In this document: one piece after another, positions 1 to 16,044 of the stretch
How the letters are laid out: the number at the start of each line of letters is the position of its first letter
Position numbering within the stretch: position 1 is the stretch's first letter
DNA from: Thermoanaerobacterales bacterium
Lineage (GTDB): Bacteria; Bacillota; Thermosediminibacteria; Thermosediminibacterales; Tepidanaerobacteraceae
Assembly: GCA_012839145.1 (NCBI GenBank)
Contig: DUNY01000267.1
Location: forward strand, 1 to 16,113
Reading direction: 5' to 3'
DNA: 16,113 nucleotides
Notes under the pieces: model-generated
Seen by the model: only the letters and a program-made list of their open reading frames with translations
Database searches by the model: none
What the model was told of the DNA's origin: nothing
Translations under genes and position numbers: made by a program

Positions 1-3000
1 ATATCCATTGTGATACTATGTGCATTATTTACTATGGTAGCTGTTGCGCCACAATCAGCTATGGCCCAGTCGGCTAAAACCGTCGTTCTATATGACGGAA
101 CAGTTAATTTGACACCCGGTGAGACTTTTGACGTAACTGCCTACAACTCGGGGTCAGCTTATACTGTTAACAAGGCTACACCATTAGGAGCGCTTCAGGC
201 CGCCGCAGCCGCCGGTGGGTTTACCTATGATATCACTGACAAGAATTACGGTGCTTCGGGTGCGCTTCTCTTGGACAACGTAGGAAAACATTCTTATGTT
301 AAAGGCGGGAGCAAGTGGTATGCTTATGTCAACAATGTTTTTAAAGATGGATATAACAATCCTGCCGGAGCTCTGAATCTGATTGAACTAGTTGATGGTG
401 ACCGGGTTGAGTTCTACTATGCCGCCGGTATCACCGACGAAACCGATCTCAGTGCTGTGAAAGCGGCTGCTACCGCAGCGGTAAAAACGGTTGTTGACAC
501 AGGTGGTGCCACACCGACAGACTGGACTCTCCAGCTCTCTGGTGCAAAGGAGACAACCATCAGCAAAGCTTACTTCGAGGATGGCATGTCTTGTTCGCCT
601 TCTCACCGGGTGTCCTGGACCGATGATGACGGTAATGTCTGGGAAGGTATGCCCCTCTGGTTGCTCGTGGGCATGGTTGATGATGACACTGACGAGGGTC
701 CACACCACTTTAACTTCAACGACGAGCTTGCTGCTCAGAACTATCAAATTGATGTTATTGCGGGAGACGGGTGGAAGGCAACCCTGGACAGTACTGCTAT
801 CGCCCGCAACGATGGATATATTATTGCAAACAAACTTAATGGAAAGCCCCTTCCAATGCAGACCGAAGCGGGGAAAGACTGCTGGCCACTCCATCTGAAA
901 GGTTCAGATGTTTTTGGCGGGCAGCAGGTTGGGAATATTGTCCGTATTGAGCTTAAAAGTCTTCCGAAGCCATCCGAAGGATGGACCTTGGAGATGGTGG
1001 GAGATGTAGTGGATACCATCACCCAGGAAGAGTTTGAAGATGGCCTTGCCTGTGCAGGCTCAGGTCATTATAAAGAATGGTCTGATAACGAAGGAAACGT
1101 CTGGTCCGGTGTACCACTTTGGGCACTCGTAGGTGCGGTAGACGACATTGAGGCAGGTAGTCACTGGACTTTCAATGATAGCTTGGCTGCAAAAGGCTAT
1201 TCGGTAAAAGTGATTGCTGCAGATGGTTTTTCCAAGACCTTTACCAGTAAGGATGTAGCCAGAAGTGATAACTATATCATTGCTAATAAGATTAACGGTG
1301 CACCGCTGACTGATAAAGGTCCGCTGCGTCTGGTAGGTGCCGGTGTTGCCAAAGAAGATGGGTCTCTCGGGGGAGAAGCCGTTGGCAACATAGCGAGGGT
1401 AGAAATCCCTGAACTGCAGACTCCGCCGGCTGGAGAAGGAAATTGGAACCTAACTTTAAAAGGCAAGATTAGTGATGTATTTTCACAGGAGGAGTTTGAG
1501 AAGGCCTTTGACTGCCATAAGGCAGAATGGACTGATGGTGACGGTAATGTCTGGTCAGGGATACCTCTGTGGCTACTAACAGGCTGGGTAGATGACAGGC
1601 AGCCCCACAAATACGATTATAGTCAGGCTCAAGCCGGTTATACCATCCTGGTCAAGGCTGGAGACGGATATACTAAGGATTTTGCAAGCACGGATGTAGC
1701 CAAAAGCAATGATTATATCATTGCACATAAATGCAACGGGAAACCGCTGACAGATAAATCATGGCCTCTGCGTTTAGTAGGTGCCGGAGTTGCCAAAGCG
1801 GATGGGACCCTAAGCGGAACCAGTGTTGGGAGCATTGCAGAAATTGAACTGACGTCTTTTGAGACTGCCCAAGACATACCGGAAGTTCGTATCGTCAAGT
1901 ATGATGAAGATGGAGTCACCATTCTTAAGGAGATAACGGTGGATTATCTCTGGATGGAGAAAGAGCTTGAAGTTATCGGAGATGGGAAAACAGTCTACAG
2001 ATACGAGGGAATAACAAACAATCCGGACGATATCTGGGATGCGGATGAAACATATCCCGGTGGTTTCAAGATTGAAAATGCAGTAAAAGGTACCCGCGTA
2101 AGAGATCTTTGTGAGCTTGTGGGTGGCATGGGGGCAGGTACTGAAATAGTATTTGTTGCCAAAGACGGTTTTGAGACTAGGCTTCCCTATTCCAGCATAT
2201 ACACTGACCCTTCGGTACATGCACGCCAGGGAGATGCCATTCTGGCTTGGTGGGCTGACGGGGAATACGTGCCCCATTATCGGGATGGTATGCGTTTGTT
2301 CTTTACTCCGGGTGGTGACAATGTCTATGGCCAATGGGATATGCATGAGACAATTCCGGAAAACTACTGGCATTACTATTTTAGCTCCAGTGATAATATC
2401 TTCTATCCTTCCTGTGCCGGCTTATCTGCAAAGTGGATTACGGAAATCAGGGTATACTCAGTGCCTCAGGGTGATTGGACATTAAAGCTCGATGGCAGTG
2501 ATATTGGCGGTATGGAATATGAAATAAGCAAAACCTATTTCGAACAGGCTCTCGCCTGTCAGTTCGGCGCCAATCACAAGGCAACATACACCGATTCCAA
2601 AGGGCGGGTCTGGGAAGGCATGCCCCTGTGGCTTTTCGCTGGATTCGTCGACGATGACGATCAGCACTCTAATGATGCGTTTAATGAGGAACTGGCTGTA
2701 GCCGGTTACTATGTAGTTATTACCGCCGCTGATGGCAATTCAGTTACTATCGACAGCAAGGATATTATCAGAAACAGTGATTACATCGTTGCCAACACGC
2801 TGAATGGAGCTCCAATACCCGAGTCTGACAAGAGTTGGCCGCTAAGGCTCGTAGGGCCTGCTGTTACCGGGTCAGAATCGCTTTCGCAGATTGAGCGTAT
2901 AGAGTTGGTAAGTTCAATAGAAAAACCGGTCTACATAGTTACACCGGAAGATGATGCTGCTTATACAATTGGTCAGACTGCAGACGGTATCAACACCATG

Positions 3001-3267
3001 ACTGTGAACGACGGTATAGTAGGATTAAAATATTTTACGGTAAGCATTACGCCGGAAACTCCTCATAGTGGAAATGAAACAGCAGTCTTTACTCATTTAA
3101 GAAATGAAACACAACTGGCAATCAGTGCCATCAGAGCTGATTTTGATCAGGTTGATGTTGATTCAGCACAGGCTAGCTTTGAGGTTCAGCCTGGCGATGT
3201 GATCAAAGTATATCTTGTGGACGAACTAAATAATTCAACGGGCAATAACCCGGTCATCTTACAGTAA
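1..3267 (+). CDS. Large exported multidomain surface protein with five Moco-like domains (5' partial)
   Basis: The frame is open to the left edge. A GTG at 10 could start it, but the N-terminus it gives is hydrophobic without positive charges, so the true start probably lies before the window. Residues below count from that GTG. A signal-peptide end (AMAQSA, about 17-22) is followed by a DUF4430/transcobalamin-C-like domain (about 24-140, with KWYAYVNNV). Then come five repeats resembling the molybdopterin domain of sulfite oxidases: about 171-316, 325-466, 478-615, a divergent one at 623-817, and 822-967. Four repeats share W-[ST]-D/GNVW-G-x-PLW/VDD, DYI[IV]A and WPLRLVG, and each has one Cys where sulfite oxidases carry the Mo-ligating Cys (compare CAGSGH with their CAGNRR). 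Residues 974-1085 form a domain shared with the phosphoesterase gene downstream. No sortase, SLH or transmembrane anchor is visible. Cofactor binding is inference; annotation as a sulfite-oxidase-fold surface protein is fairly secure. Confidence 0.85.
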   Translation: MSIVILCALFTMVAVAPQSAMAQSAKTVVLYDGTVNLTPGETFDVTAYNSGSAYTVNKATPLGALQAAAAAGGFTYDITDKNYGASGALLLDNVGKHSYVKGGSKWYAYVNNVFKDGYNNPAGALNLIELVDGDRVEFYYAAGITDETDLSAVKAAATAAVKTVVDTGGATPTDWTLQLSGAKETTISKAYFEDGMSCSPSHRVSWTDDDGNVWEGMPLWLLVGMVDDDTDEGPHHFNFNDELAAQNYQIDVIAGDGWKATLDSTAIARNDGYIIANKLNGKPLPMQTEAGKDCWPLHLKGSDVFGGQQVGNIVRIELKSLPKPSEGWTLEMVGDVVDTITQEEFEDGLACAGSGHYKEWSDNEGNVWSGVPLWALVGAVDDIEAGSHWTFNDSLAAKGYSVKVIAADGFSKTFTSKDVARSDNYIIANKINGAPLTDKGPLRLVGAGVAKEDGSLGGEAVGNIARVEIPELQTPPAGEGNWNLTLKGKISDVFSQEEFEKAFDCHKAEWTDGDGNVWSGIPLWLLTGWVDDRQPHKYDYSQAQAGYTILVKAGDGYTKDFASTDVAKSNDYIIAHKCNGKPLTDKSWPLRLVGAGVAKADGTLSGTSVGSIAEIELTSFETAQDIPEVRIVKYDEDGVTILKEITVDYLWMEKELEVIGDGKTVYRYEGITNNPDDIWDADETYPGGFKIENAVKGTRVRDLCELVGGMGAGTEIVFVAKDGFETRLPYSSIYTDPSVHARQGDAILAWWADGEYVPHYRDGMRLFFTPGGDNVYGQWDMHETIPENYWHYYFSSSDNIFYPSCAGLSAKWITEIRVYSVPQGDWTLKLDGSDIGGMEYEISKTYFEQALACQFGANHKATYTDSKGRVWEGMPLWLFAGFVDDDDQHSNDAFNEELAVAGYYVVITAADGNSVTIDSKDIIRNSDYIVANTLNGAPIPESDKSWPLRLVGPAVTGSESLSQIERIELVSSIEKPVYIVTPEDDAAYTIGQTADGINTMTVNDGIVGLKYFTVSITPETPHSGNETAVFTHLRNETQLAISAIRADFDQVDVDSAQASFEVQPGDVIKVYLVDELNNSTGNNPVILQ
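520..2910 (+). repeat. Tandem repeat of five Moco-like domains inside the first gene
   Basis: The units lie at about 520-957, 982-1407, 1441-1854, 1876-2460 (divergent and longer) and 2473-2910. Units 1, 2, 3 and 5 share the order: WTL start, F-E-[DQK] helix, Cys then His, GNVW/GRVW-G-x-PLW, VDD, ADG or GDG, DYI[IV]A, NG-x-P, LRLVG. DNA identity between units is only moderate, so the duplication is old and has diverged at protein level. It is not a recent tandem duplication. Confidence 0.8.
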
Positions 3268-3289
3268 TGGCTTAACTTACATGACGGTA

Positions 3290-3318
3290 GAGGGAAAGGG
3301 GGCTTTTCCCCCTCCCTC
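3290..3318 (+). terminator. GC-rich hairpin after the first gene
   Basis: GAGGGA-AA-GGGGG pairs with CCCCC-TCCCTC around a CTTTT loop. It lies 22 bases after the stop at 3267 and before the chosen start of the next gene at 3353. No U-run follows (AATATTGATAT), so it may be a weak terminator or an mRNA-stabilising hairpin. Its position also argues against the earlier ATG at 3281 as a start. Confidence 0.4.
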
Positions 3319-3352
3319 AATATTGATATCTGAAAACCGGGAGGCACTGTGC

Positions 3353-3910
3353 ATGCAGTTTAGTTTTCTCCGAAAGGGTAAAGTGGTTTCTATTTTGATA
3401 TTGCTCCTGCTCGTTTGTAATTTAGGCTGTGGATCCAGAACGCAGGAAGAAATTGCTGTAGGTACAGTTGTTATTGAGGGAAGTGCTGTAGAGGGCAAAG
3501 CGTTCTTAACATTGGAGGAACTAAAGTCCATGGAGGAGGGACTGGTTGAAACCGATTATTTTTCTCTCAATTCTTACGGTACGAAGGAATACTTTCATTT
3601 CAAAGGTATCTGGATATGGCATATTTTGCAGGAAAAAGTGAGTTTGAAGGATAATGCTTCAAAAGTTATTTTTATAGCAGAGGACGGTTATGCAGTGGAG
3701 TATACACTGGCTGATGTCCAAAGGGATGATTATGTAGATGAACAAAATCCCGGGGTGAAACACAAGATGATACTGGCCTGGGAAGAAGACGGAATCGAAT
3801 ATGACTCGCAGCAAGGCAACCCTTTTCGGCTGGTCGTCGGTCAGAAAGAGACGGGGGATGTAAACAAACCCTACTGGGTGTGCAATGTAAGAACTATTCG
3901 TATTGATTAA
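3353..3910 (+). CDS. Small lipoprotein with one Moco-like (sulfite-oxidase-fold) domain
   Basis: The start is ATG 3353, 8 bases after GGGAGG (3339-3344); an ATG at 3281 in frame would run through a hairpin and has no ribosome site. The 185-residue product has a lipoprotein-type N-terminus: RKGK, a hydrophobic stretch, then NLGC with the likely lipidated Cys26 (Asn at -3 is atypical). The rest (about 35-185) is one small molybdopterin-oxidoreductase-like domain: TLEEL, SLNSYGT at the ligand-loop position, AEDGY, then GNPFRLVVGQ and NKPYWV near the end. The Mo-ligating Cys of true sulfite oxidases is absent, with Asn nearby, so catalysis at molybdenum is unlikely and ligand or pterin binding is only possible. 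It lies between the two large surface-protein genes, suggesting an outer-membrane-leaflet or wall-side partner of them. Family placement is by motif pattern. Confidence 0.75.
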   Translation: MQFSFLRKGKVVSILILLLLVCNLGCGSRTQEEIAVGTVVIEGSAVEGKAFLTLEELKSMEEGLVETDYFSLNSYGTKEYFHFKGIWIWHILQEKVSLKDNASKVIFIAEDGYAVEYTLADVQRDDYVDEQNPGVKHKMILAWEEDGIEYDSQQGNPFRLVVGQKETGDVNKPYWVCNVRTIRID

Positions 3911-3978
3911 AATAGGAAAAGTCCAGCTGGCAGCATAGGAAAAACCGGACACATTCCATTATGAAGGGGAACCGGGGG

Positions 3979-4023
3979 CATTTAATGTGAGACGGTTCGA
4001 TTTTTCGCACTTAATGGTTTTTC
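3979..4023 (+). terminator. Candidate terminator hairpin after the lipoprotein gene
   Basis: CATTTAATGTGA (3979-3990) faces TCGCACTTAATG (4005-4016). They form a 12-position stem with two mismatches and one G-T wobble, followed by GTTTTTC. It sits in the 200-bp gap between the lipoprotein and phosphoesterase genes. The imperfect stem and long loop keep confidence low. Confidence 0.35.
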
Positions 4024-4111
4024 AAAATGACCAATTATACTAAAAACAACGCAAGCGATTAAAGGTTTTTAAACCGTCACCAATTATAAAAAAAGAGGTG
4101 TTTTGTGCAAA

Positions 4112-6781
4112 ATGTATCTTAAGCAAAACCAGTGGAAAAAATTAGCTGCCATCCTCATGGTGATAGGTTTATTTTTTAGCTTGAGCAGTTTTTTTGCGCC
4201 GGGGACAGTTAATGCAGCTGAGAAATCAATAACGATAAAAGTGAACGGGGTGGTGAAAAAAACCTTTACCTGTGATGATCTGGAAGCGAAGAAGGGCACA
4301 ACGGCCTGGGCAGGACCCCGTGTTTACAGCACGATTAACACCTATCCAACCAAAAAATGGTATGCAGTTGAAGGCGTAAAACTAATGGCCCTTTTCGAGG
4401 ATGCCGGTGTTGACTTAGAAGAAGAAGGTATTCAGGTCATTAAAGTAAAAGCAAATGATGGTTATCTGATGACCTTTACTAAAAAAGAGTTGTTAGATGA
4501 TAGTCGTTATTATTTCCCGGGATTAAAGGATAATCATGAGTATTATGGGCATATGCAAGGTTCAGTCAGAGGCAAAGAACCGGTTGATGCTATTATTGCT
4601 CTGAGAAGTGTAGAAAGCGATGATTTTGCTTATATGACTACCCAGAGTTGTCCATTGTTGATTTTCGGGCAGCGCTGGGTTACGGAACAAACTAACCATA
4701 CTTTTTCAAAAAATGTAAGCGAAATCGATCTTTTAACAACTGCTCCGGAAAAATGGGCCAGTCCGACAGCGACACCGGCTGGAGGCACTGTTCCTGCAGG
4801 TACTAAGGTTGTGCTGACAAATGAATTCGGTGATACTGATAAGATATACTACACCACTGACAACAGCGATCCAACCTTGGAAAGTCCGATTTACAACTGG
4901 ATTGCTCGCCGCTGGTGGAACAACCGGAAAGATGTTTTAGATGAAATCAACAAACCGATTGAAATCACCGAGGATACCACCATCAAAGCAATAACAATCG
5001 GCTTTGGTCGCGAAGACAGTGATATTGCTGTCTTTGAATATATGGTTGAAACCGCAGCCGTTACCGGCGTAAGTATTATAGAAGGGGACCAGATACTAAA
5101 CGAAGGTATCACTGTAAAGCTTACAGCTGTAGTTAGCCCTGTAAATACATATAACCAGAAGGTAACGTGGTCTACGAGCGACGATTCCGTTGCCACAGTA
5201 GATAAAGAAACAGGCTTGGTGACTGCAGTATCAGAGGGTGAGGCGACTATCACCGTTACTACTGACAACGGGGAGTTTAACGACAGTATAACCGTTACCG
5301 TTGTACCACCTTATTCGGCTGCTTTGGCAGAGGAGTCTCCTTCACCGGAACAGATTATTCTCACCTGGACTGCCGATCCGACTACTACACAGACTGTTAA
5401 TTGGTTAATGCCCAATAATTCATTGGCCTGGGTACAGTATCTTAAGGCAGAAGAGTTTGAAGGCAATTTTGATTCTGCTCAACAGCTAAAAGCCAAAGGT
5501 GCTGTGTTTACCACTGATAGCAGTGTTTACCGTTATACAGCAAACCTCACTGGCTTGACCCCAGATACAAAATATATATACCGAGTAGGGAGAGAAGGAG
5601 CCTGGAGTGAGCCGGCTGCTTTTACTACTGCTGCTACAGAGACCGAAAGTTTCTCCTTTTTGTATATGGGAGATGTACAGTCAGGATATACTGCATGGGG
5701 CAGTATGTTAGATTCAGTTTACGAGGCTCATCCTGAAACCAAGTTTGTCCTTTTGGGCGGAGATTTGACAGATAAAGGTTACGATGAAAACGAATGGGGA
5801 GAGTTTATTGATGCGGCGGCAGGTGTTTTTTCCCGGATACCGGTCATGCCCACTATGGGCAATCATGATGGATTAATGTATCAAAAATTTTTTGCGCTAC
5901 CGGATAATGGTCCCACCGGTTTGAAGCAAGAATTTTATTCTTTTGATTATGGTGATGCCCATTTTGTAATATTAAACAGCAACAATAACACTAGTACGGT
6001 AGTAAAACAATGGCTCCAGCAGGACCTGGAAGGTACGAACAAAAAATGGAAGTTTGCTGTATTCCATCATCCAGCCTATCCGGCCACATATGATTCCAAA
6101 GGAATTGACAAATCTATCTGCGAAAACTGGGTACCCATTCTTGAGGAAAACGGTGTGGATATGGTTTTTGTCGGCCACCAGCATGTATATATGCGCACAT
6201 ATCCAATTTTTCAGGGAGAAGTACAAACAGATTCCTATGGAATTGTCTATGTCATGGGTAATGCCGGCTCCAAGACTTATGGTGGTGGGGTAGGCTTGCC
6301 CTACATTGCATGTGAAAAAATCGGCAGTAACTATCAGGTGATCGATATTGATGGCGATGTGTTAACTCTGACGTCTAAGGAAGCGAGCGGTGAGCTGATT
6401 GAAACTTATATTATCAACAAAAGCATACAAGTGCAGCCCGAAAAGCCGCAATATCATGTCATACCGAAAAAAGACTCTGTTTATAACATAGGAGCCACCA
6501 CCGACGGTATTAAAACCATGATTGTAAACCCAAACCAAACCGGGTTAAAAGATTTCACTGTCTTTATAGAACCTGTAGTTAAAAATGAAGGCACAGAAAC
6601 GGTAGTGTTTACCCAATTTCGAGACGGCGTACAGTTGCATCTTAACACTGTGGTAGCCGATTTTGATTTGATAAAAACTGCGCAAGCAGAATTTGATATA
6701 GAGGACGGTGATGTTATTAAGGCTTATATTGTTGATGATTTTAACAACGCCGATGATTTTAATCCGACGATTCTGCAGTGA
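4112..6781 (+). CDS. Exported purple-acid-phosphatase-type metallophosphoesterase fused to Moco-like, chitobiase-C-like and Big_2 domains
   Basis: The start is ATG 4112, 11-13 bases after GAGGTG; an in-frame TTG at 4103 is too close to it. The 889-residue product begins with a Sec signal (QWKK, hydrophobic core, cleavage near VNA-AE at about 35). Then come a Moco-like domain (about 38-210, with STINTYPTKKW and RGKEPVDA), a chitobiase/hexosaminidase-C-like domain (about 211-310, IYYTTDNSDPT), a Big_2 Ig-like domain (about 318-398), a fibronectin-like phosphatase N-domain (about 402-508) and a metallophosphoesterase domain (about 513-725). All metal motifs are present: GDVQ at 520, GGDLTD at 549, GNHD at 583, HH at 652 and GHQH at 688. 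The last ~110 residues match the end of the first gene, including NPxILQ at the C-terminus. Phosphomonoesterase or diesterase activity outside the cell is likely; the substrate is unknown. The fusion to a Moco-like domain is unusual. Confidence 0.88.
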   Translation: MYLKQNQWKKLAAILMVIGLFFSLSSFFAPGTVNAAEKSITIKVNGVVKKTFTCDDLEAKKGTTAWAGPRVYSTINTYPTKKWYAVEGVKLMALFEDAGVDLEEEGIQVIKVKANDGYLMTFTKKELLDDSRYYFPGLKDNHEYYGHMQGSVRGKEPVDAIIALRSVESDDFAYMTTQSCPLLIFGQRWVTEQTNHTFSKNVSEIDLLTTAPEKWASPTATPAGGTVPAGTKVVLTNEFGDTDKIYYTTDNSDPTLESPIYNWIARRWWNNRKDVLDEINKPIEITEDTTIKAITIGFGREDSDIAVFEYMVETAAVTGVSIIEGDQILNEGITVKLTAVVSPVNTYNQKVTWSTSDDSVATVDKETGLVTAVSEGEATITVTTDNGEFNDSITVTVVPPYSAALAEESPSPEQIILTWTADPTTTQTVNWLMPNNSLAWVQYLKAEEFEGNFDSAQQLKAKGAVFTTDSSVYRYTANLTGLTPDTKYIYRVGREGAWSEPAAFTTAATETESFSFLYMGDVQSGYTAWGSMLDSVYEAHPETKFVLLGGDLTDKGYDENEWGEFIDAAAGVFSRIPVMPTMGNHDGLMYQKFFALPDNGPTGLKQEFYSFDYGDAHFVILNSNNNTSTVVKQWLQQDLEGTNKKWKFAVFHHPAYPATYDSKGIDKSICENWVPILEENGVDMVFVGHQHVYMRTYPIFQGEVQTDSYGIVYVMGNAGSKTYGGGVGLPYIACEKIGSNYQVIDIDGDVLTLTSKEASGELIETYIINKSIQVQPEKPQYHVIPKKDSVYNIGATTDGIKTMIVNPNQTGLKDFTVFIEPVVKNEGTETVVFTQFRDGVQLHLNTVVADFDLIKTAQAEFDIEDGDVIKAYIVDDFNNADDFNPTILQ

Positions 6782-6823
6782 TTACTGCTGTTAAAAATTT
6801 ATAAGTAAAGAGAGGCGTAGATT

Positions 6824-7675
6824 ATGTTTAAAAAGAAAGTAACAATAATAATGGCAACTTTGTTGCTTGCATTGCTTGTCTTTCCCATAGCTTTTGCCGC
6901 CGAAGTGACTTTCGAGCTTAGCACTGATATCGCTTGGCCCGAGGATAGCGTAAAAGTTTCAGGGACGGCAGACCCTGAAACCTGGGTTTCTATTAAAGTC
7001 ATCGACAATGATAGTGAGATTGTGTTCTTTGATGCTACCAAATCCGATGCAGATGGCAATTACAGTCTCACTTTTAAGGTTCCGTTCGTTAAACCCGGCA
7101 CTCTAACTGTAGTTGCTGGATATAAGGCTAAAGTAGCCACCGGGAAATTAATCGTACCGGGAGCTCTTACCGACATTGGGGGACATTGGGCAGAAGCTGA
7201 TATCATAGCTTTGGTCGAAAAAAGGGCTATCACAGGCTACCCGGATCAAACCTTCAAGCCCAACAATAACATCACTCGGGCTGAGTTTGCTGCGGTCTTG
7301 GTTAAAGCTTTTCAGCTGGAGGCAAAAGAGGGCAAGATATTTACAGATACGGCTGCCCACTGGGCAAAAGACGTTATTGCTACAGCGGCAGCCCACGGCA
7401 TTGTTGACGGTTACAGCGATACTATTTTCAGTCCCAATGATAACATTACCCGCGAACAGATGGCAGTAATGGTCACCAGAGCAGCCAACCTTATTGACGA
7501 AGTGCAAGCACCGATCTTTTCCGACAGTGCTAAGATATCTGCCTGGGCCAAAGACGCAGTTGCCGTGGCTGCAAATGCTGAAATTATCAAAGGTTATCCC
7601 GACGGCAGTTTCAGGCCCCAGGGCCAGGCTACCCGGGCCGAAGCCGTTACGGTGGTTGTTAAAGCTTTAAAATAG
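6824..7675 (+). CDS. S-layer-homology (SLH) domain surface protein
   Basis: The start is ATG 6824, 8 bases after GAGAGG. The 283-residue product has a signal peptide (MFKKK, hydrophobic core, cleavage after AFA-A at about 25). An Ig-like beta domain follows (about 27-110; GTADPETWVSIKV, DADGNYSLTF). Then come three SLH modules at about 115-160, 173-217 and 231-280, with the usual D-x-x-x-HWA, ITGYPD-x-TF-P and ITRAE-type signatures (ITRAEF, ITREQM, ATRAEA). SLH triplets normally hold proteins to pyruvylated secondary cell-wall polysaccharide. Only 42 bases separate it from the phosphoesterase, so the two are probably co-transcribed. Since the large proteins upstream lack SLH modules, this small protein could act as their wall adaptor, perhaps through the C-terminal domain they share; that is inference. 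Confidence 0.9.
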   Translation: MFKKKVTIIMATLLLALLVFPIAFAAEVTFELSTDIAWPEDSVKVSGTADPETWVSIKVIDNDSEIVFFDATKSDADGNYSLTFKVPFVKPGTLTVVAGYKAKVATGKLIVPGALTDIGGHWAEADIIALVEKRAITGYPDQTFKPNNNITRAEFAAVLVKAFQLEAKEGKIFTDTAAHWAKDVIATAAAHGIVDGYSDTIFSPNDNITREQMAVMVTRAANLIDEVQAPIFSDSAKISAWAKDAVAVAANAEIIKGYPDGSFRPQGQATRAEAVTVVVKALK

Positions 7676-7745
7676 TCTAGAAAAGCAGAATAAAAGGCGA
7701 ATAAAATCCACTTCCTTTCCTTTTCCAGCTTGCTTTAGGATAATA

Positions 7746-7774
7746 TTGACATGCCTATAAAATTGTGATATGCT
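7746..7774 (+). promoter_or_regulatory. Extended -10 sigma-A-type promoter
   Basis: TTGACA (7746-7751) is followed by a 17-base spacer and TATGCT (7769-7774), with TG at 7766-7767 giving an extended -10. Transcription would start near 7780, just before the candidate aptamer, and would read toward the S-component gene. Confidence 0.65.
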
Positions 7775-7791
7775 CAAATAGACATAATGAA

Positions 7792-7900
7792 AAGATATGT
7801 TTATACGGTTAAAAGGCTGTGATTTAGCCGCCTTATATACTTTTAACAAATGGGCGTAATAAGTACTTAACCTCCCGTTTGAAAAGGGGACATATTCTTG
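7792..7900 (+). promoter_or_regulatory. Candidate Moco/Tuco (molybdenum or tungsten cofactor) riboswitch aptamer
   Basis: A closing stem pairs AAG-ATATGT (7792-7800) with ACATAT-T-CTT (7890-7899). Inside it TTATACGG (7801-7808) pairs with CCGTTTGA (7875-7882). Compared from memory with the E. coli moaA Moco leader, the string order and spacing match: ACGG, six bases, GGCTGTGA (E. coli GGCCGTGA); then GGGCG (7852-7856); then ACCTCCCG (7870-7877); then GAAAAGG (E. coli GGAAAGG). GTTAAAAG and CTTTTAAC (7808-7815, 7840-7847) can also pair. The P4-like hairpin after GGGCG is weak and the 5' internal loop differs from E. coli, so this may be a divergent or Tuco-type member. It is followed by a strong terminator. 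Call is by eye; a covariance search is decisive. Confidence 0.6.
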
Positions 7901-7909
7901 AAAATATTT

Positions 7910-7947
7910 AGGACAGTTTCCTATCGGAGGCTGTCCTTTGTAATTTT
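7910..7947 (+). terminator. Strong intrinsic terminator, probable riboswitch expression platform
   Basis: AGGACAGTTTCC (7910-7921) pairs over 12 positions (two G-T wobbles) with GGAGGCTGTCCT (7926-7937) around the loop TATC, followed by the T-rich tail TTGTAATTTT. It lies 10 bases after the aptamer and about 240 bases before the S-component start, as expected for transcription attenuation. The rest of the 7676-8184 gap holds the promoter, aptamer and repeat listed separately. Confidence 0.7.
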
Positions 7948-8002
7948 AAGATTAGCTCAGAATCCTCATACGGCCTGCACCACGAAAAATGAAAGCATTT
8001 CC

Positions 8003-8104
8003 CGTCATTCCGAAGGAGCAAAGCGACTGAGGAATCTTAAAAAAGATCCTTCAGGCAAAGACTTTCAGGATAACAACTAAGCAGAGACTTTCATAACAAT
8101 GACA
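8003..8104 (+). repeat. MITE-like palindromic repeat, copy 1
   Basis: The left arm GTCATTCCGAAGGAGCAAAG with ACTGAGGAATCTT is answered by a degenerate right arm, AAGATCCTTCAGG, and an end ATGAC at 8099-8103. The core is of the widespread type in which a GTCATTC end and a GAGC-AAGC arm face AAGATTC...CTCAG arms, known from intergenic regions of many bacteria. It lies between the attenuator terminator and the S-component gene. No coding sequence is present. Confidence 0.55.
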
Positions 8105-8184
8105 AAATCGAAAGTGTGTCCTCCCAATGATGGGACTTTATGTTTGTCACTTAAATCAAAATTTTATAATAGAGGGTAAGTACT

Positions 8185-8754
8185 ATGAATTGGTGGAAAA
8201 AATTTATAAAGCGGTTTTCCCCATATAACCTTGCAATAATGGCTCTTGTTTCGGCCATAGGAATTGCAGTAAAGCCGATTACTACTTCTCTTGCACATAT
8301 CATAACCGGACCGCTGTATGTTCCGGGTGGTGTTGTTGCCGGAGGGCTATATATGATGTGGATCGTGATTGGGGCAGGGCTTGTGGGCATCCCGGGGACG
8401 GCTGCTTTTATAGGGATTATTCAGGCCTTGATGGTAATAATACTGGGTTCTTACGGGACACACGGGGTCTTAAGCCTTTTGACCTATTCTGTTCCGGGTG
8501 TGTTTATTGATTTATTGCTTTTAATCATGAGAGATCACCGGCATATATGCTGTCCATTATGTGGGTTTTTAGCCGGGGCAGTGGCCAACATAGGCGGCAC
8601 ATGTATTGTCTCTCTGGCATTTTTTAATCTTCCCCTAATACCTTTGCTGCTTAGTATTTCCCTGGCGGCGCTTTCAGGCGGGCTGGGGGGGCTGTTGGCT
8701 TTTTATATTATCACTCAGCTAAGAAAAATGAAAATAGCCAAATCGATTGATTAA
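8185..8754 (+). CDS. ECF transporter substrate-binding membrane (S) component, substrate unknown
   Basis: The start is ATG 8185, 8 bases after GAGGG (8172-8176). The 189-residue product is almost wholly hydrophobic with about six transmembrane segments (near 16-35, 45-62, 65-87, 95-115, 122-145, 150-175). The first helix carries an A-x-x-x-A motif (ALVSA), typical of the S-component face that contacts EcfT. Conserved-looking loops are GPLYVPGGVVAGG with YMMW, and GSYGTHG. Size and topology fit ECF S components, and EcfA1, EcfA2 and EcfT follow 259 bases downstream. I do not recognise the vitamin-specific subfamily; it does not look like BioY, ThiT or RibU to me. The Moco-riboswitch-like leader suggests a molybdopterin-related or oxyanion-related ligand, while DUF4430 upstream could suggest a corrinoid; neither is shown. 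Confidence 0.75.
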   Translation: MNWWKKFIKRFSPYNLAIMALVSAIGIAVKPITTSLAHIITGPLYVPGGVVAGGLYMMWIVIGAGLVGIPGTAAFIGIIQALMVIILGSYGTHGVLSLLTYSVPGVFIDLLLLIMRDHRHICCPLCGFLAGAVANIGGTCIVSLAFFNLPLIPLLLSISLAALSGGLGGLLAFYIITQLRKMKIAKSID

Positions 8755-8770
8755 ATATCGGAATCATAAT

Positions 8771-8837
8771 TGATTCTAATGTAAAAGTTCTTCCAAGGTG
8801 TCATTATTTTTACTAGAGTAATTTTTACACCAGAACT
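8771..8837 (+). repeat. Dispersed ~67-bp intergenic element, copy A
   Basis: This stretch matches 16045-16111 with about 18 substitutions, all transitions, and one single-base gap. A hairpin lies at 8813-8833. Compared with the right-edge copy, two of its pairs changed on both sides (C-G to T-A, G-C to A-T). It begins 17 bases after the S-component stop. Confidence 0.65.
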
Positions 8838-8866
8838 ATCCACGTGTTACCCACACCACGATTAAC

Positions 8867-8954
8867 GTAAGTGTTACTCTTACTCTGAGCATAGCAAAGA
8901 GTCTTAAGATTCTTCGGACTTCGTCCTCAGGATGACAAAAAAGTTAGCACTTAC
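8867..8954 (+). repeat. MITE-like palindromic repeat, copy 2
   Basis: The ends are near-perfect inverted repeats: GTAAGTGTTAC (8867-8877) and GTTAGCACTTAC (8943-8954). Inside, an arm CTCTGAGCATAGCAAAGAGT and then CTTAAGATTCTTCGG and CTTCGTCCTCAGGATGACA show the same core family as the element at 8003. The two copies bracket the S-component gene. The remainder of the 8755-9013 gap has only the dispersed element and a small palindrome (8981-8994). Confidence 0.55.
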
Positions 8955-9013
8955 AAAGCAAACACAATTTGGTTTTAATGGTATTTAAAAATACGGCTAA
9001 GGGGGGTTAAGCG

Positions 9014-9751
9014 GTGGATGTTTTACCGGTGGAGATTAAAAATCTAAGTTTTGCACATGCCGGCTCAAATCGCCCTGTCTTAAACAATATAAATTTAAAA
9101 ATGTTTCCGGGAGAAAGCATAGGTATTACAGGGCTCAGCGGAAGCGGCAAAACAACACTTGCTATGGCAGTATGCGGGCTGCTTAAAAGAAATATTGAAG
9201 GAATATTAGAAGGTGAAATAAAGATATACGGTAAAAATGTTTTTGATTATGCAACTGCACAAATTGGGACAAAAGTAGGATTAGTATTCCAAAATCCGGA
9301 GAACCAGCTATTTTCCACGTCGGTTTTTGATGAAATTATCTTTGGTCCAGAAAATTTGTGCCTTCAAAAACAGGAAATAGAAAAAAGAGCACAAAAATCC
9401 ATGGACCTTACAGGAACCCAGGATCTTGCAGATAGGCATCCCGGCCAACTGTCAGGAGGGGAAAAACACCTTGTGGCACTAGCGTCCGTGCTAAGCCTTG
9501 ACCCTGATATTTTCATATTTGATGAAGTGATGAGCCAACTCGACTCTGATAATGTACAGCGGGTTAATAAAATTATTTCAATATTAAAACAATGCGGTAA
9601 ATCCATACTTATTATTGACCATGAACTTTCAAGATTAGATGGAGTCGATAGACTGTTTCTCATGAAGGCTGGCAGTATAATACCTGCGAGCTCAAGGGAT
9701 ATAGAAGATTATTATAGAGAACTTTTGGCAAAAGCGGACAGGTTGGAGTGA
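9014..9751 (+). CDS. ecfA1: ECF transporter ATPase A1
   Basis: The GTG 9014 start is 7 bases after GGGGGG. The 245-residue ABC ATPase has Walker A GLSGSGKT (40-47), Q-loop QNPENQ (Q93), signature LSGGE (146-150) followed by KHL rather than the usual QR, Walker B FIFDE (D170, E171) and switch His203 (IIDHE). The catalytic residues are intact. QNPE/NQLF after the Q-loop and the pairing with a second, similar ATPase and an EcfT protein are typical of energy-coupling factor modules, which power vitamin or metal import through S components. It is followed after 6 bases by ecfA2. In a group II arrangement the module may serve several S components elsewhere in the genome, so adjacency to the S gene at 8185 suggests but does not prove partnership. 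Confidence 0.9.
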   Translation: MDVLPVEIKNLSFAHAGSNRPVLNNINLKMFPGESIGITGLSGSGKTTLAMAVCGLLKRNIEGILEGEIKIYGKNVFDYATAQIGTKVGLVFQNPENQLFSTSVFDEIIFGPENLCLQKQEIEKRAQKSMDLTGTQDLADRHPGQLSGGEKHLVALASVLSLDPDIFIFDEVMSQLDSDNVQRVNKIISILKQCGKSILIIDHELSRLDGVDRLFLMKAGSIIPASSRDIEDYYRELLAKADRLE

Positions 9752-9757
9752 AAAAAT

Positions 9758-10420
9758 TTGTCCTTATTAGAAGTTAAAGATCTATCATTTGCATATAAAA
9801 ATGGAGTGCAGATAATTGAAAGAATAAACTTCACTTTAAACAAAGGGGATTGTCTTGCCATTAAGGGACCCAACGGAAGTGGAAAAACAACTCTTGCAAA
9901 ACTTTTGACAAGAATCCTCAGACCTACCGGAGGTCATATTCTTCTTGAAGGAAAAGATATTTCAGAGTTGACATTAGCAGATATAGGGAAAAAAATCGGT
10001 TATGTCATGCAAAATCCCGAAAGACAGGTGTTTTCACACACTGTGGAGGAAGACATTGCCTTCAGCTTGAGGCATAGGGGATTTAAAAGCGAGGAAGTTG
10101 AAAAAAAGATTGACAAAATGCTTGATTTTTTTGAGCTGAATCGATATAGAAAAACATCCCCGTTTATTTTAAGCCGAGGAGAACAGCAGCGCCTTGCTAT
10201 CGCCTCTGTATTGGTGTTAGAACCGAAAATATTATTGTTGGATGAACCTACTACCGGGTTGGATCCGCTGCGAAAGAAAAGGCTGGAGTTAATGTTGAGG
10301 GAGCTATATTACAATGGGACTACCCTTATTGTCATAAGTCACGACCATAAATTTTTAAGTAAGCTTTTTAATAAGGAACTTTGTATTGAAAATGGTCTTA
10401 TGCGGGAGGATATGCTGTGA
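9758..10420 (+). CDS. ecfA2: ECF transporter ATPase A2
   Basis: The TTG 9758 start is 9 bases after GGAG (9745-9748) in the end of ecfA1. The 220-residue ATPase has Walker A GPNGSGKT (37-44), Q-loop QNPERQ (Q85), signature LSRGEQQR (138-145), Walker B ILLLDEPTTGLD (D162, E163) and His195 (ISHD). It is the second half of the EcfA heterodimer and is shorter than the usual ~280 residues because it lacks a long C-terminal extension. Its stop overlaps the EcfT start by GTGA, so ecfA1, ecfA2 and ecfT form a tightly coupled operon. Confidence 0.92.
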   Translation: MSLLEVKDLSFAYKNGVQIIERINFTLNKGDCLAIKGPNGSGKTTLAKLLTRILRPTGGHILLEGKDISELTLADIGKKIGYVMQNPERQVFSHTVEEDIAFSLRHRGFKSEEVEKKIDKMLDFFELNRYRKTSPFILSRGEQQRLAIASVLVLEPKILLLDEPTTGLDPLRKKRLELMLRELYYNGTTLIVISHDHKFLSKLFNKELCIENGLMREDML

Positions 10421-11157
10421 CGCATTTTGAGCTGGACCCAAGAACCAAGCTGGTCTTTGTGCTTGTTATATCGAGTTTGGCAGTAATATACAGATCACTG
10501 TATTGGCTTATAGGTTTATTTGCCTGCTCCACAGTGCTGTTTTTTGTATTCGGGGTCAGGTTTTCCAATTTACTGAACAGACTTAAGAGCTTTATACCAA
10601 TTATAATACTTATTATTTTTGTTCAAAGTATCTTCCGACAAGAGGGGAATGCAGTATTAGCCGTAGGAAGATTCAACCTGCTAACTGATGTAGGAGTAAA
10701 AGAGGGTGCAAGTGCTGCACTCAGGCTTATGATATTAATTTTGTCTGCAGGAATTCTCGTTTCCACAAACCCACAACATCTCATAAGGGGACTGGTGGAT
10801 TGGAGAGTGCCTTATGAGCTAATATTTATGGTTCAGATGGGTATCAGGTTTTTGCCTTTACTGAGAGAAGAAGTGAATGATACCTTTGCTGCAATACAAT
10901 TGAGAGGAGTTGAGCTTGTTAATGTTCCATTGGTCAAAAAAATGAAGATCTACAGTCATGTATTTTTGCCGTCAATTGCCAATGCATTGATAAGAACAAA
11001 TCAGCTTACCCTCGCCATGGAATTGAAAGGTTTTGGTGTGGGAGAAAAAAGAAGTTTTTATCATGAGGTTTCGCTAAAGTCAGTAGACAAAATACTTACA
11101 TTTGTCAGCATTTTTTTAGGTCTGACAGCCGTTATATTGTATTATAAGTGGAATTAA
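10417..11157 (+). CDS. ecfT: ECF transporter transmembrane coupling protein EcfT
   Basis: The GTG 10417 start overlaps the ecfA2 stop by four bases, with GGGAGGA 6 bases before it. The 246-residue membrane protein begins with HFELDPRTKL, a classic EcfT opening, and has about five transmembrane segments (near 11-45, 57-72, 100-116, 135-150, 225-243). Two coupling motifs sit in the cytoplasmic helices that touch the ATPases: AIQLRG (159-164) and AMELKGFG (200-207). The second has Lys204 where Arg is normal in the A-R-G motif; charge is kept. The protein bridges the two ATPases and the S component. There is no close gene after it for 125 bases, so the following lipoprotein gene may have its own promoter or be read through. 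Confidence 0.92.
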   Translation: MTHFELDPRTKLVFVLVISSLAVIYRSLYWLIGLFACSTVLFFVFGVRFSNLLNRLKSFIPIIILIIFVQSIFRQEGNAVLAVGRFNLLTDVGVKEGASAALRLMILILSAGILVSTNPQHLIRGLVDWRVPYELIFMVQMGIRFLPLLREEVNDTFAAIQLRGVELVNVPLVKKMKIYSHVFLPSIANALIRTNQLTLAMELKGFGVGEKRSFYHEVSLKSVDKILTFVSIFLGLTAVILYYKWN

Positions 11158-11282
11158 AATAAGCCCAGATGTGATAATGGAGCCAGAGGTAGTTATAACA
11201 CTTTAACAAAATGAAGAGATTATTCCACTACATAACTGAACAATTTACTCAACCTTAAACTTTAAGATAAGGGGGCAAATAC

Positions 11283-12410
11283 TTGAATAATTATATAAAC
11301 AGGCTCATTGCTTTACTGTTAATTAGCTTGCTTTGTTTGTCAGTAGCAGGATGTGGCCAAAAAGAAATGGCAAGTGCTAGGAGTACTGGGAAAGAAGAGT
11401 ATGAAAATCAGATAATAGTAATACAAGGCGCAAAAGACGGAAATAAAGAGGTAACAGTTGCTGAAATGAGAAAATTGGAGCAAAAAGAGCTTAATGCAAG
11501 CTTAACCAGGACAACAGGCATGTTGGAAGAGTTTAAAGCTTCCGGCCCCACTGTAAAAGATGTCTTAGCTCTGGTAGGTGAAGATATGTATGAATACAAG
11601 GGATTGGGGTTTGTAGGGAGAGATGGCTACTACTGTCTGGTTACACCTGAGATTATAGAAAACTATGAATTAGTCTTGGCATTGGCTGTTGATGACAACC
11701 CGGAGCTTGCTAACGATACAAAACCTGCAAGATTATGTATTCAGGGAGAATACGGGCCCTATTGGGTTCGCATGGTGGATAAAATCGTATTGTATGAGGA
11801 AATTCCTAAAAAAGACATCAATTCAGTCTGGGTATTCAAAAACTTAGCTAAAGATATACAACCTTATCAATATGAGTATTATGGAAGCAAAGATGATGCC
11901 ATAGAACTGGCACAGATTTTTTCAAGATTTGATAATGTAAGCAACGAGGCCTTTTTTACAATGAAGTCTGCTGATGGATTTATCAAAAATGAAGCCATGA
12001 ACATTGTAAGCCAAAGATATTATATTAAAATAGAGGGCAAAGCTGCACCAATGAATATTTCTCCATATATAAAGCTGGGCATGAACGTAAAAAACATGGC
12101 ATGGTTTTCCACAAATGCTGATGCTGTCATATTCCCTGAACAAATGGCTAAACTTTTGGAGGAAAAACAAATTGATGGTCTAAAAGGGGTTTTACTTGGA
12201 GAAATATTGGAAGAGGTCCGCGTTAAAGATATTGATAATAAACGATTCGAAGTTATTGGCGGAAATGGTCAAAGCGTAAAGGTTAGAGGCAATGATCTTT
12301 ACAAAGGGATATTGACTGTATGTGAAGACGGTACTTATAGTGTTGTATGGGATAAGCAATCAGGGATAAATCTGGTTAAAGACCTACTTTGTATTAAAAC
12401 TGTAGAATAA
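11283..12410 (+). CDS. Lipoprotein with Moco-like domains
   Basis: The TTG 11283 start is 7 bases after GGGGG (11271-11275). The 375-residue product has a lipoprotein signal with lipobox VAGC (Cys24). Residues about 45-172 form a Moco-like (sulfite-oxidase-fold) domain: VTVAEM, the ligand-loop region SLTRTTG, GRDGYYCLVT, ARLCIQGEYGPYWVRMV. A middle part (about 178-258) and a last part (about 300-375, GILTVCEDGTYSVVW) look like further, diverged domains of similar beta-rich type. The Mo-ligating Cys position of sulfite oxidases is not occupied by Cys in the first domain. It follows the ECF genes and precedes the FMN-binding lipoprotein by 48 bases, so it may be a ligand-capture or redox partner at the outer face of the membrane. 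Function is inferred from fold pattern and context only. Confidence 0.7.
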   Translation: MNNYINRLIALLLISLLCLSVAGCGQKEMASARSTGKEEYENQIIVIQGAKDGNKEVTVAEMRKLEQKELNASLTRTTGMLEEFKASGPTVKDVLALVGEDMYEYKGLGFVGRDGYYCLVTPEIIENYELVLALAVDDNPELANDTKPARLCIQGEYGPYWVRMVDKIVLYEEIPKKDINSVWVFKNLAKDIQPYQYEYYGSKDDAIELAQIFSRFDNVSNEAFFTMKSADGFIKNEAMNIVSQRYYIKIEGKAAPMNISPYIKLGMNVKNMAWFSTNADAVIFPEQMAKLLEEKQIDGLKGVLLGEILEEVRVKDIDNKRFEVIGGNGQSVKVRGNDLYKGILTVCEDGTYSVVWDKQSGINLVKDLLCIKTVE

Positions 12411-12458
12411 AAAATTCAAGTATGAAGTTCAATAAAGAGCTAAGTGGAGTGTTGATGA

Positions 12459-13058
12459 TTGAAAAACAGAGAACTTATCATAACAGCTGTGCTGTTGACT
12501 GTTTTGCTAATTATGGGTTGCGGTCATGATGGAATGACAAAAAAAGAATTGAGAGCAGTAAAAGAAGTTATTCCAAATATAGATGAAAAGGATATAGAAA
12601 AAATCAAATTATCTGATGATATAAACACAAAATTCCCGGCAATCAAAAAAGCTTTTAAGGTGAAAAACGGTGGTTATTATGATTACGCTTTTATAGCGGC
12701 TCCGGTTGGTTACCGAGGGCCTATTAATATCGTTGCTGTTATTGACGGGGAACAAAATAAAGTGACAAATGTCAGCATTGTTGAACATGATGAAACACTG
12801 ATTTACGCTGAGAGTTTAACGGAAGATTGGTTTTTAAACCGTTTTAAAGGGAAGGGTGTAAAACAATATTTGGAAAGGGTAATACTGGAGGCTACCAAAC
12901 CTCATGAAATCGTTCAAATAACCGCTGCTACAATTAGCACTCAAGCAGTCATAAACGGTGTAAATTCAGCTATCGGGGCGTACCGTGAAATGGTGCTTAA
13001 AGAAAGCTCACAACCTATTCCCCTCAAGGTAGAAGAACTTGTCACAGGTGTTGAATAA
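12459..13058 (+). CDS. FMN-binding domain lipoprotein with a flavinylation-type motif
   Basis: The TTG 12459 start is 9 bases after GTGGAG; an ATG at 12455 is out of frame. The 199-residue product has a lipobox IMGC (Cys21). Residues about 70-175 form an FMN-binding domain of the RnfG/NqrC type: GGYYDYAF, VAVIDGEQNKV, and ITAATISTQAV with Thr158 in the place where ApbE attaches FMN through a phosphoester bond ([ST]GAT-[IL]-[ST] pattern; Ala replaces Gly here). An extracytoplasmic covalently bound flavin is therefore likely, needing an ApbE encoded elsewhere. It sits between two Moco-like proteins, which suggests an electron-transfer role at the outer face of the membrane, but could also reflect flavin-based sensing. 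The family call is fairly strong, the redox partner unknown. Confidence 0.78.
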   Translation: MKNRELIITAVLLTVLLIMGCGHDGMTKKELRAVKEVIPNIDEKDIEKIKLSDDINTKFPAIKKAFKVKNGGYYDYAFIAAPVGYRGPINIVAVIDGEQNKVTNVSIVEHDETLIYAESLTEDWFLNRFKGKGVKQYLERVILEATKPHEIVQITAATISTQAVINGVNSAIGAYREMVLKESSQPIPLKVEELVTGVE

Positions 13059-13081
13059 AATAACAGGTCTTGGTTTAGGGA

Positions 13082-13128
13082 GAGGTGCCGTCATCTTCAC
13101 CTTAGAAGGATTTTCTACACTGAAACCA
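13082..13128 (+). repeat. Dispersed intergenic element, copy B (core only)
   Basis: The core 13082-13101 matches 16069-16088 at 19 of 20 positions (GAGGTGCC, one A/G change, TCATCTTCACC). The 3' hairpin region is diverged but can still form TTAG/CTGA and AGAA/TTCT stems. It lies between the FMN-binding gene and the membrane-anchored Moco-like gene. Confidence 0.6.
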
Positions 13129-13192
13129 AATTTGCATAGATTTAGAATGCTCAAGCCGCGCTGCAATCTGAAATTTAAGGGAGGTACTAAAG

Positions 13193-13711
13193 TTGGCAGT
13201 TTCAAAGACAAAGAAAACGGGTAATACAGTCGTAATTATAATAGTCTGTCTTGCTGTTACTGTTGGCATCTTGGCATACCTTAACTCCCAAGGAGAAAAG
13301 CTAAATGAAGGTGAAATTAAAATAAAAGCAGGAGACAAGGTCCTTGGAACCGTGACAATAGATGATGCAAGACAACTGCCGGCAGTTAAGAAAAAACTTG
13401 CTATTAATTCTACTAAAGGAATAACAAAACACCAGTTTACATGTACGCCGTTGTCAGAGGTCTTTAAGAAGATTGACCCTGAAATTTGCAGCAGTTACAA
13501 TAAAGTAATAACAATAGGTGTGGATAATTACACATCTTTTATTAGAATGGATGAAGTTATGGAAAAAAACAATGTATATTTGGTATATGAGGATAACGGC
13601 AAACCTCTTAAAACAAAAATGGGCAAAGAAGGAAGTATGAGAGTAATAATTTTAGACGATGTATTCGGGCAGCGCTTTACAAACTTCCTTGTTGAAATGC
13701 GACTTGAATAG
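13193..13711 (+). CDS. Membrane-anchored single Moco-like domain protein
   Basis: The TTG 13193 start is 8 bases after AAGGGAGG (13177-13184), a strong site. The 172-residue product has a basic N-terminus (SKTKKTG), one transmembrane helix (about 11-30) and no lipobox, so it is anchored with its C-terminal part outside. Residues about 40-172 are one Moco-like domain: KVLGTVTIDD, AINSTKG at the ligand-loop position, then HQFTCTPLSEVF, TIGVDNYTSF, MGKEGSMRVIILDD and the final GQRFTNFLVEMRLE. The sulfite-oxidase Mo-ligating Cys is missing. It resembles the lipoproteins at 3353 and 11283 in overall plan, and with the FMN-binding gene forms a small surface module. No enzymatic function can be assigned. 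Confidence 0.7.
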   Translation: MAVSKTKKTGNTVVIIIVCLAVTVGILAYLNSQGEKLNEGEIKIKAGDKVLGTVTIDDARQLPAVKKKLAINSTKGITKHQFTCTPLSEVFKKIDPEICSSYNKVITIGVDNYTSFIRMDEVMEKNNVYLVYEDNGKPLKTKMGKEGSMRVIILDDVFGQRFTNFLVEMRLE

Positions 13712-13784
13712 CATACCTAGCGAGATTTGGACAATTTTTGCACAGCATCACGATGTAGATAACATAATTTAATGAATTGCTTTA

Positions 13785-13880: not shown

Positions 13881-13885
13881 ATCCG

Positions 13886-15114: not shown

Positions 15115-15125
15115 CCTCACACTTA

Positions 15126-15154: not shown

Positions 15155-15192
15155 AGTCGTGGCATTATGAGGAACTTGGAGGGAAAGGCTCT

Positions 15193-16038: not shown

Positions 16039-16044
16039 AAAGAC

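Follow-up and report, generated by a model that had tools for sequence, protein, structure and literature searches.

The molybdenum cofactor (Moco) and the tungsten cofactor (Tuco) are usually regarded as made by every organism that uses them, since they are unstable when free. The Moco RNA (RF01055), a riboswitch with a GAAA tetraloop on P4 and the tetraloop receptor in P2, has been described in front of genes for cofactor biosynthesis, molybdate transport and enzymes, with 'sulphite oxidase' genes of S. wolfei as exceptions; its P3-less form was tied to the tungsten cofactor, and an energy-coupling factor (ECF) importer is not mentioned in the available part of that report (Regulski 2008, PMC2408646). 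Reduced pterins are bound by the periplasmic protein PruR, which lacks the Mo-ligating Cys of SUOX enzymes and partners the c-di-GMP enzyme DcpA in Proteobacteria (PMC13259868); ready-made Moco is taken up from the diet by C. elegans (PMC9793310); and T11SS proteins have been speculated to act in cobalamin or molybdopterin uptake (PMC12282271). Our search of the open-access literature, with subscription papers and preprints outside its scope, brought up no importer for Moco, Tuco or molybdopterin in bacteria, and the available parts of PMC13390414, PMC3766115 and PMC11477304 mention none, in agreement with a first-pass annotation that knew of no ECF importer for a molybdopterin-type compound. 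Here, we describe an ECF operon, consisting of an S component, two ATPases (A1 and A2) and a T component with several partner genes, in a 16,113-nt stretch of DNA from a Thermoanaerobacterales bacterium (GCA_012839145.1, contig DUNY01000267.1, positions 1 to 16,113; the window), and compare it with related loci.

The S component together with A1, A2 and T probably constitutes an importer within a salvage operon. Its substrate would be a molybdopterin-type compound, in the first place the pterin cofactor of tungsten or the pterin portion of it, and the window leader would then be a decayed or variant Moco RNA. With less assurance, we favor the view that this is the first import and salvage system for molybdopterin or tungstopterin, and that some of its owners, without MoaA, MoaC and MoeA, are true auxotrophs that obtain finished tungsten or molybdenum cofactor from their neighbours, with PruR-fold surface proteins feeding an ECF transporter, often under a Tuco riboswitch.

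The ECF operon and its relatives

The predicted operon genes of the window are as follows.

8185-8754, + strand, ECF S component (PF09819, 35.3 bits; cut-off 25.2)
9014-9751, + strand, ECF ATPase A1 (ECF_ATPase_1 of NCBIfam, E 7e-54, cut-off not reached; PF00005)
9758-10420, + strand, ECF ATPase A2 (ECF_ATPase_1 of NCBIfam, E 8e-55, cut-off not reached; PF00005)
10417-11157, + strand, ECF T component, CbiQ family (PF02361, E 8e-27)
11283-12410, + strand, SUOX-like lipoprotein SUOXb (PF00174, 23.1 bits, slightly below the cut-off)
12459-13058, + strand, FMN_bind (RnfG-like) lipoprotein (PF04205, E 2e-12)
13193-13711, + strand, SUOXc, a membrane-anchored SUOX/PruR-fold domain
13886-14599, + strand, small APH/RIO/Bud32-like kinase, the proposed salvage kinase (PF01163, PF01636)
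14587-15114, + strand, MobB GTPase of molybdopterin dinucleotide metabolism (TIGR00176, 81.9 bits; cut-off 76.2)

Judged by sequence, the ECF set appears complete, with the genes for S, T and two ATPases lying together. An AlphaFold2 model of the S protein (pLDDT 88.5) matched best, among PDB folds, the ECF S component 5EDL (TM 0.73, E 2e-4), which we take to be YkoE; the biotin, riboflavin and thiamin S components followed with weaker E values. Of 478 homologs of S, the 120 best carried generic names (ECF transporter S component, cobalt or thiamin/hydroxymethylpyrimidine (HMP) transport permease, hypothetical protein), and these included homologs at 86-89% identity, one of which (86%) was named from a Tepidanaerobacteraceae metagenome-assembled genome. 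A sequence search of PDB chains with the S alignment and with the long SUOX protein at the start of the window gave no meaningful match. On either side of the S gene, positions 7998-8042 and 8889-8939 read similarly by eye in opposite orientation, and the repeat search did not report them as a repeat.

The first-pass annotation had read the region ahead of S as a Moco/Tuco-riboswitch-like leader and proposed to check whether orthologous S genes carry the same leader; about half of them do carry a Moco RNA. We compared 90 S loci, leaving out four duplicates (L091, L133, L137 and L150) and seven weak or distant S matches (L067-L073, four with matches to the covariance model R1); some loci share one genome, for example L080 and L092. 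R1 found a Moco RNA upstream of S in the sense direction at 47 of the 90 loci (all E≤3e-6). It was trained on 20 RF01055 matches, which include L012, itself among the 47, and L033, L034, L037 and L044 from distant S loci (28-30% identity). Counted by placement, 54 Moco RNAs lay upstream in sense and one downstream in antisense, with none upstream in antisense or downstream in sense. Thirty-five of the 47 lay within 3 kb of S, no opposite-strand gene of the scored families intervened between RNA and S, and an upstream Moco RNA was present at 29 of the 40 loci in which at least 9 kb upstream was covered. Most of the 47 were scored by R1 only; RF01055 itself was found upstream of S on the same strand in 5/20 S-carrying relatives (G034, G046, G089, G073 and G017, four of them with distant S proteins), and its cut-off was reached at the S leader of L012/L062 (59.1 bits) and in four further S-carrying relatives, 2-5 kb upstream on the same strand.

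A P3-size insert was absent from the P3 place in 58 of the 59 Moco RNAs found, a count that may lean high because R1 was trained mostly on P3-less RNAs; L128 has such an insert, and in the RNA of L141 the P2 side carries a long one. The P3-less RNAs correspond to the tungsten-linked type (PMC2408646). RF01055 was the only family returned by an Rfam scan at E≤1 of 16 loci, 14 of them S loci. Two or three Moco RNAs stand in series upstream of S at L098 (8183-8649), L101 (7191-7479), L107 (6096-6370) and L088 (3438-3716).

Partner genes, recognised by phmmer with the window proteins only, occurred in many arrangements, frequently in the order Moco RNA, FMN_bind, SUOXb, S, X, SUOXc, A1, A2, T, MobB, kinase. 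In the 71 loci with at least 6.5 kb downstream, we found T in 64, A2 in 65, A1 in 58, SUOXc in 55, MobB in 44, the kinase in 32 and FMN_bind in 16. The SUOXb orthologs of L057 and L115, the two tested, exceeded the PF00174 cut-off. The fold of SUOXc matched the solved PruR structures (7KOM, 7KOS and 7RKB), and like PruR it has no conserved Cys; it differs from PruR in its company, being a neighbour of ECF ATPases in genomes that mostly bear the names of Bacillota lineages, whereas PruR partners DcpA in Proteobacteria (PMC13259868). In the kinase, K49, E59, D131, N136 and D148 were invariant across 29 sequences. A candidate open reading frame (ORF) for gene X, between S and SUOXc, occurred in 42/90 loci and was a type I phosphodiesterase/nucleotide pyrophosphatase in 4/4 tested; its Asp/Thr/His positions, presumably active-site residues, were invariant in the six aligned. 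No X gene adjoins S in the window.

The leader of the window operon

The leader contains the following elements, the short strings being read from the letters.

7746-7774, + strand, sigma-70-type promoter TTGACA-17-TATGCT, extended by TG (ranked first among 7 promoter-like sites, compared with 3.9 in shuffles)
7766-7789, + strand, tentative, degenerate ModE-like palindrome TGATATGC-N8-ACATAATG overlapping the -10 box (3 mismatches to CGnTATGT-N8-ACATAnCG)
7791-7905, + strand, Moco-RNA-like region, a decayed or variant aptamer (aligned end to end by the covariance model R2 at 6.0 bits, not significant)
7805-7808, + strand, ACGG
7815-7822, + strand, GGCTGTGA
7852-7856, + strand, GGGCG
7871-7877, + strand, CCTCCCG
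7881-7887, + strand, GAAAAGG
7871-7887, + strand, Moco-like 3' core CCTCCCGTTTGAAAAGG (CCTCCCG-N3-GAAAAGG), a pattern otherwise found only inside Moco RNAs in S loci
7910-7937, + strand, intrinsic terminator of 12 pairs with a 4-nt loop (-18.8 kcal/mol alone)

The extended -10 promoter, leader, 12-pair terminator and S gene stand in the order given by the first-pass annotation. Its identification of the leader as a Moco/Tuco riboswitch was not borne out. The RF01055 search that it had suggested gave no match in the window at gathering and none at E≤10 in 7600-8200. R1 and R2, built from 20 and 59 Moco RNAs, respectively, were run on the window with filters off: R1 gave no + strand match across 7780-7910 (edge-touching matches scored 1.6 and 0.7 bits), and the + strand alignment of R2 (E 0.25 in 491 nt) compared with 10.3 bits for a spurious match on the - strand. 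A linear nhmmer profile matched nothing in the leader. A canonical Moco RNA was ruled out by these failures. The leader lacks the 5' half of the Moco RNA, the P4 loop (no GAAA between GGG 7852 and CCTCCCG 7877) and the P2 receptor (no CCTAAG in 7780-7900), and it had no match among plasmids. Folding gave an outer stem at 7792-7800/7890-7899, with GGG at 7852-7854, and was slightly better than that of shuffles (z -1.14; 27/200 shuffles equally good).

The same genome has two real RF01055 matches elsewhere (63.3 and 43.9 bits), and one of its Moco RNAs precedes a ferredoxin-like gene and a gene for the aldehyde ferredoxin oxidoreductase family (AFOR). One of the two (L001, 1501-1626, - strand) precedes a lipoprotein-like ORF (2-1324, - strand) of at least 441 residues, cut at the locus end, for which no Pfam family was found; it may encode a further component for taking up cofactor or metal.

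In comparison with the Moco RNAs of the related loci, the window leader retains the 3' core only, CCTCCC-loop-GRAAAGG closing the junction. The pattern CCTCCCG-N2..6-G(A/G)AAAGG, chosen post hoc after the leader had been seen, had 20 occurrences across the S loci (both strands of 1.6 Mb), of which 19 fell in full Moco RNAs and the remaining one in the window leader; a looser pattern that also fits the window occurred at six places outside Moco RNAs, those in the window and L118 before S and the other four unrelated. The consensus of twenty Moco RNAs from this genome and its relatives contains CTCCGAG, CCTAA, GGAAAC and CCTCCCG-N-GGAAAGGAG. Only the last of these recurs in the window, in a variant form that carries G to A and A to G changes. 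Of the strings that the first-pass annotation likened to the Moco RNA of E. coli moaA, ACGG-n6-GGCTGTGA has no counterpart in this consensus.

Two other stripped Moco-like leaders lie near S genes, at L118 (670-756) and L129 (5075-5157). In both, the core CT(C/T)CCATTGTGGAAAGGAG stands directly before a terminator-like hairpin and most of the aptamer is missing; both scored weakly, L118 at 19.7 bits and L129 at 15.1 (E 0.086 and 1.4, respectively, in a search of 43 sources, or 0.0037 and 0.062 when searched as the only two loci). The balance of the evidence inclines us to regard the window leader as a decayed, stripped-down or variant Moco RNA of the same kind, a likeness that is no proof of a switch. 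For 5 of 57 cores (L071, L072, L104, L114 and L116), a terminator-like stem contains an 8-10 nt complement of the core (p≤0.005 relative to 200 mononucleotide shuffles per core, uncorrected for the number tested), as expected of an OFF switch.

The alternative that survives best is that the leader is unrelated to Moco RNA and consists of a ModE-type operator over an ordinary promoter followed by a plain attenuator, the strings being coincidental; even then, a molybdopterin-type compound could be what the operon imports. We consider this possible but doubtful. It accords with the absence of covariance and linear-profile matches and with the palindromes of the S loci: CGnTATGT-N8-ACATAnCG with at most one mismatch was present at 7 sites and its reversed control at none, and exact copies of CGnTAT-N12-ATAnCG stood at 8 sites, distributed over 5 S loci that have no Moco RNA, against 0-2 at other forward spacings. 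This outer geometry is that of the E. coli ModE box, consensus ATCGNTATATA-N6-TATATANCGAT (PMC545781), whereas the inner bases differ in the S loci. The enrichment is uncertain, however: the reversed control of the short palindrome gave 2 sites at spacing 12 and up to 7 at spacing 14, and the excess was gone once one mismatch was allowed (41 vs 51 in the control). TATGT-N8-ACATA was rejected as a genome-wide operator, being hardly enriched in the genome (148 vs 137). The window copy, with its three mismatches, is the best match to CGnTATGT-N8-ACATAnCG in the whole window, and a 25-mer consensus derived post hoc from it and the L061 site matches both. The restriction of the 3' core, elsewhere in the S loci, to Moco RNAs also speaks against coincidence. 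The candidate ModE-like site over the -10 box may be a second or replacement control, which we regard as uncertain.

Genome distribution of the S gene and of cofactor synthesis

The named related S loci were the best 80 of 223, and RF01055 was found in all 48 of their genomes that were searched. Among relatives, it was found in 16/21 genomes with S and 34/80 without S (Fisher p 0.007); stricter Infernal filters applied to RF01055 searches of more than 40 genomes at once. In five genomes (G118, G126, G139, G147 and G148), the sole RF01055 match found was, by coordinates, the one upstream of S.

Across the 69 S-carrying genomes, which include 8 with an S match only 28-33% identical, MoaC was not found in 16, MoaA in 18 and MoeA_N in 17, and the same 16 lacked detectable MoaC, MoaA and MoeA together. 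This synthesis-less set includes Anaerosalibacter massiliensis ND1 (G126) along with G034 (98% complete), G061 (98%) and G049 (94%, 7% contamination); completeness values cover the 4 of the 16 that lie outside the 12 named genomes. AFOR was encoded in 14 of the 16, the exceptions being G021 (81% complete) and G126, in a count taken over genomes with S. The S loci of 12 of the 16 have an upstream Moco RNA, and L129 (G134) has the stripped core; those of G021, G049 and G061 showed no upstream Moco RNA in the DNA covered. Among genomes with RF01055, MoaC was absent from 14/64 with S and 1/34 without (Fisher p 0.016). Since MoeA was also not found in the 16 genomes, the metal would enter with the pterin or be inserted by another enzyme. 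The use of ready-made cofactor by an organism able to lose its synthesis is shared with C. elegans, which differs in being an animal with an unknown transport mechanism and no ECF system (PMC9793310).

We rejected MoaE as a marker of synthesis because it was found in only 18/69 S-carrying genomes; G101, counted as synthesis-less, has a MoaE-like match. MoaE is half of molybdopterin synthase, and 36 of the 51 S-carrying genomes in which it was not found have MoaC; S-carrying anaerobes without MoaE may use another synthase.

Several observations weigh against an importer of a molybdopterin-type compound under Moco RNA control. In the DNA covered, 43/90 S loci have no Moco RNA, including 11 of the 40 with at least 9 kb upstream; 5/21 S-carrying relatives have no RF01055 match at all, among them the synthesis-less G021 and G049, and the synthesis-less G061 has its Moco RNA 12 kb downstream of S. 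The window leader does not reach the RF01055 family cut-off (36 bits) and scores at most 6.0 bits with our own models on the + strand, and antiterminator pairing in the window was not significant (5 nt, p 0.75). The genome of the window itself (G000) has MoaA, MoaC and MoeA. Among relatives with RF01055 alone, MoaC was absent from 2/16 with S and 1/34 without (p 0.24), so the contrast needs the named genomes, and the joint non-detection of moa and moe genes may partly reflect assembly gaps, because these genes cluster and a missing contig mimics loss. Homologs of S are labelled as thiamine/HMP-type in some databases. PruR is reported to be probably too small for, or unable to hold, full Moco (PMC13259868), and SUOXc may therefore hold a trimmed form.

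Some of these points would suit import of a simpler pterin, a folate precursor or a metal (tungstate or molybdate) chelate that feeds only de novo cofactor synthesis. PruR binds small reduced pterins (PMC13259868), and MoaC is present in 53/69 S-carrying genomes, the window's included. In the 16 synthesis-less genomes, however, a simple pterin or bare metal would give no cofactor by a known route because MoaA, MoaC and MoeA are lacking, and most of these genomes encode AFOR. We therefore consider this explanation unlikely.

Probable substrate of the importer and a proposed salvage route

Import of thiamine, HMP or another pyrimidine in the manner of YkoE, with an incidental link to Moco RNA, is very improbable. 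The window S shares its Pfam family (PF09819) and closest fold (5EDL) with YkoE, and the thiamin/hydroxymethylpyrimidine permease names of homologs agree with such a role; it differs from YkoE in gene company and regulation, which points to a molybdopterin-type substrate. The window contains no thiamine pyrophosphate (TPP) riboswitch or other Rfam switch, RF01055 stood alone in the scan of 16 loci, and frequent partners are SUOX/PruR-fold proteins, MobB and Moco RNA. Least probable of all is that the SUOX-like proteins are themselves tungsten or molybdenum enzymes and that the ECF transporter supplies flavin or some other unrelated cofactor of electron transfer: the FMN_bind/RnfG-like gene is present at some loci, and the 'sulphite oxidase' genes that follow Moco RNAs in S. 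wolfei were classed as putative Moco enzymes (Regulski 2008, PMC2408646), but FMN_bind is missing from most loci, compared with MobB in 44/71, SUOXc has no conserved Cys, and the Mo-ligating Cys of SUOX enzymes is absent from PruR too.

Uptake of the cofactor or a precursor, as the first-pass annotation proposed for the S gene, is well supported by the relatives through their Moco RNAs, pterin-binding-fold partners, MobB, kinase and synthesis-less genomes; the part of that proposal which relied on the window leader as a Moco RNA did not hold. Three further genes of the window, all upstream of the leader, encode predicted secreted proteins or lipoproteins that may belong to the same route.

1-3267, + strand, secreted protein, 5' end cut by the window edge, candidate surface pterin-binding protein (PF00174, 72.1 bits, E 5e-20)
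3281-3910, + strand, SUOX-like lipoprotein (PF00174, 23.9 bits, slightly below the cut-off of 24)
4103-6781, + strand, secreted protein with a purple-acid-phosphatase N domain and a calcineurin-like phosphoesterase domain (PF00149, E 6e-19; PF16656, E 1e-18)

The translation of 1-3267, read by eye, contains four tandem SUOX-like (PF00174) repeats. All four retain a Cys just ahead of a GxPLW motif, and this position may be that of the Mo ligand in SUOX enzymes. The phosphoesterase of 4103-6781 is a possible dephosphorylating enzyme and could fill the role of X in the window.

For an importer of a molybdopterin-type compound, we propose the following route. The observations behind it comprise the genes present, the placement and strand of the Moco RNAs, the protein folds and the failure to detect the synthesis genes jointly; the substrate, its trimming, the role of the kinase and switching in the window are inferred from them. 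Surface SUOX/PruR-fold lipoproteins would capture molybdopterin-type cofactor shed by neighbouring cells, and a secreted phosphodiesterase/pyrophosphatase or phosphatase would trim its dinucleotide or phosphate. The ECF importer (S, A1, A2 and T) would bring the trimmed pterin into the cell, where the APH-like kinase and MobB may process it and restore the cofactor. The Moco RNA, nearly always P3-less, that precedes about half of the related operons would turn the operon off when cofactor is plentiful. In the window, a decayed or variant Moco RNA would keep the 3' core between promoter and terminator, and the ModE-like site may provide second or replacement control.

If this proposal is true, a dedicated importer would make Moco and Tuco shared goods, like B12, and would account for genomes that encode AFOR enzymes and have no detectable synthesis genes. 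An ECF S family that carries generic names only would gain a specificity, and a role would be suggested for many of the secreted SUOX-like proteins of anaerobic bacteria.

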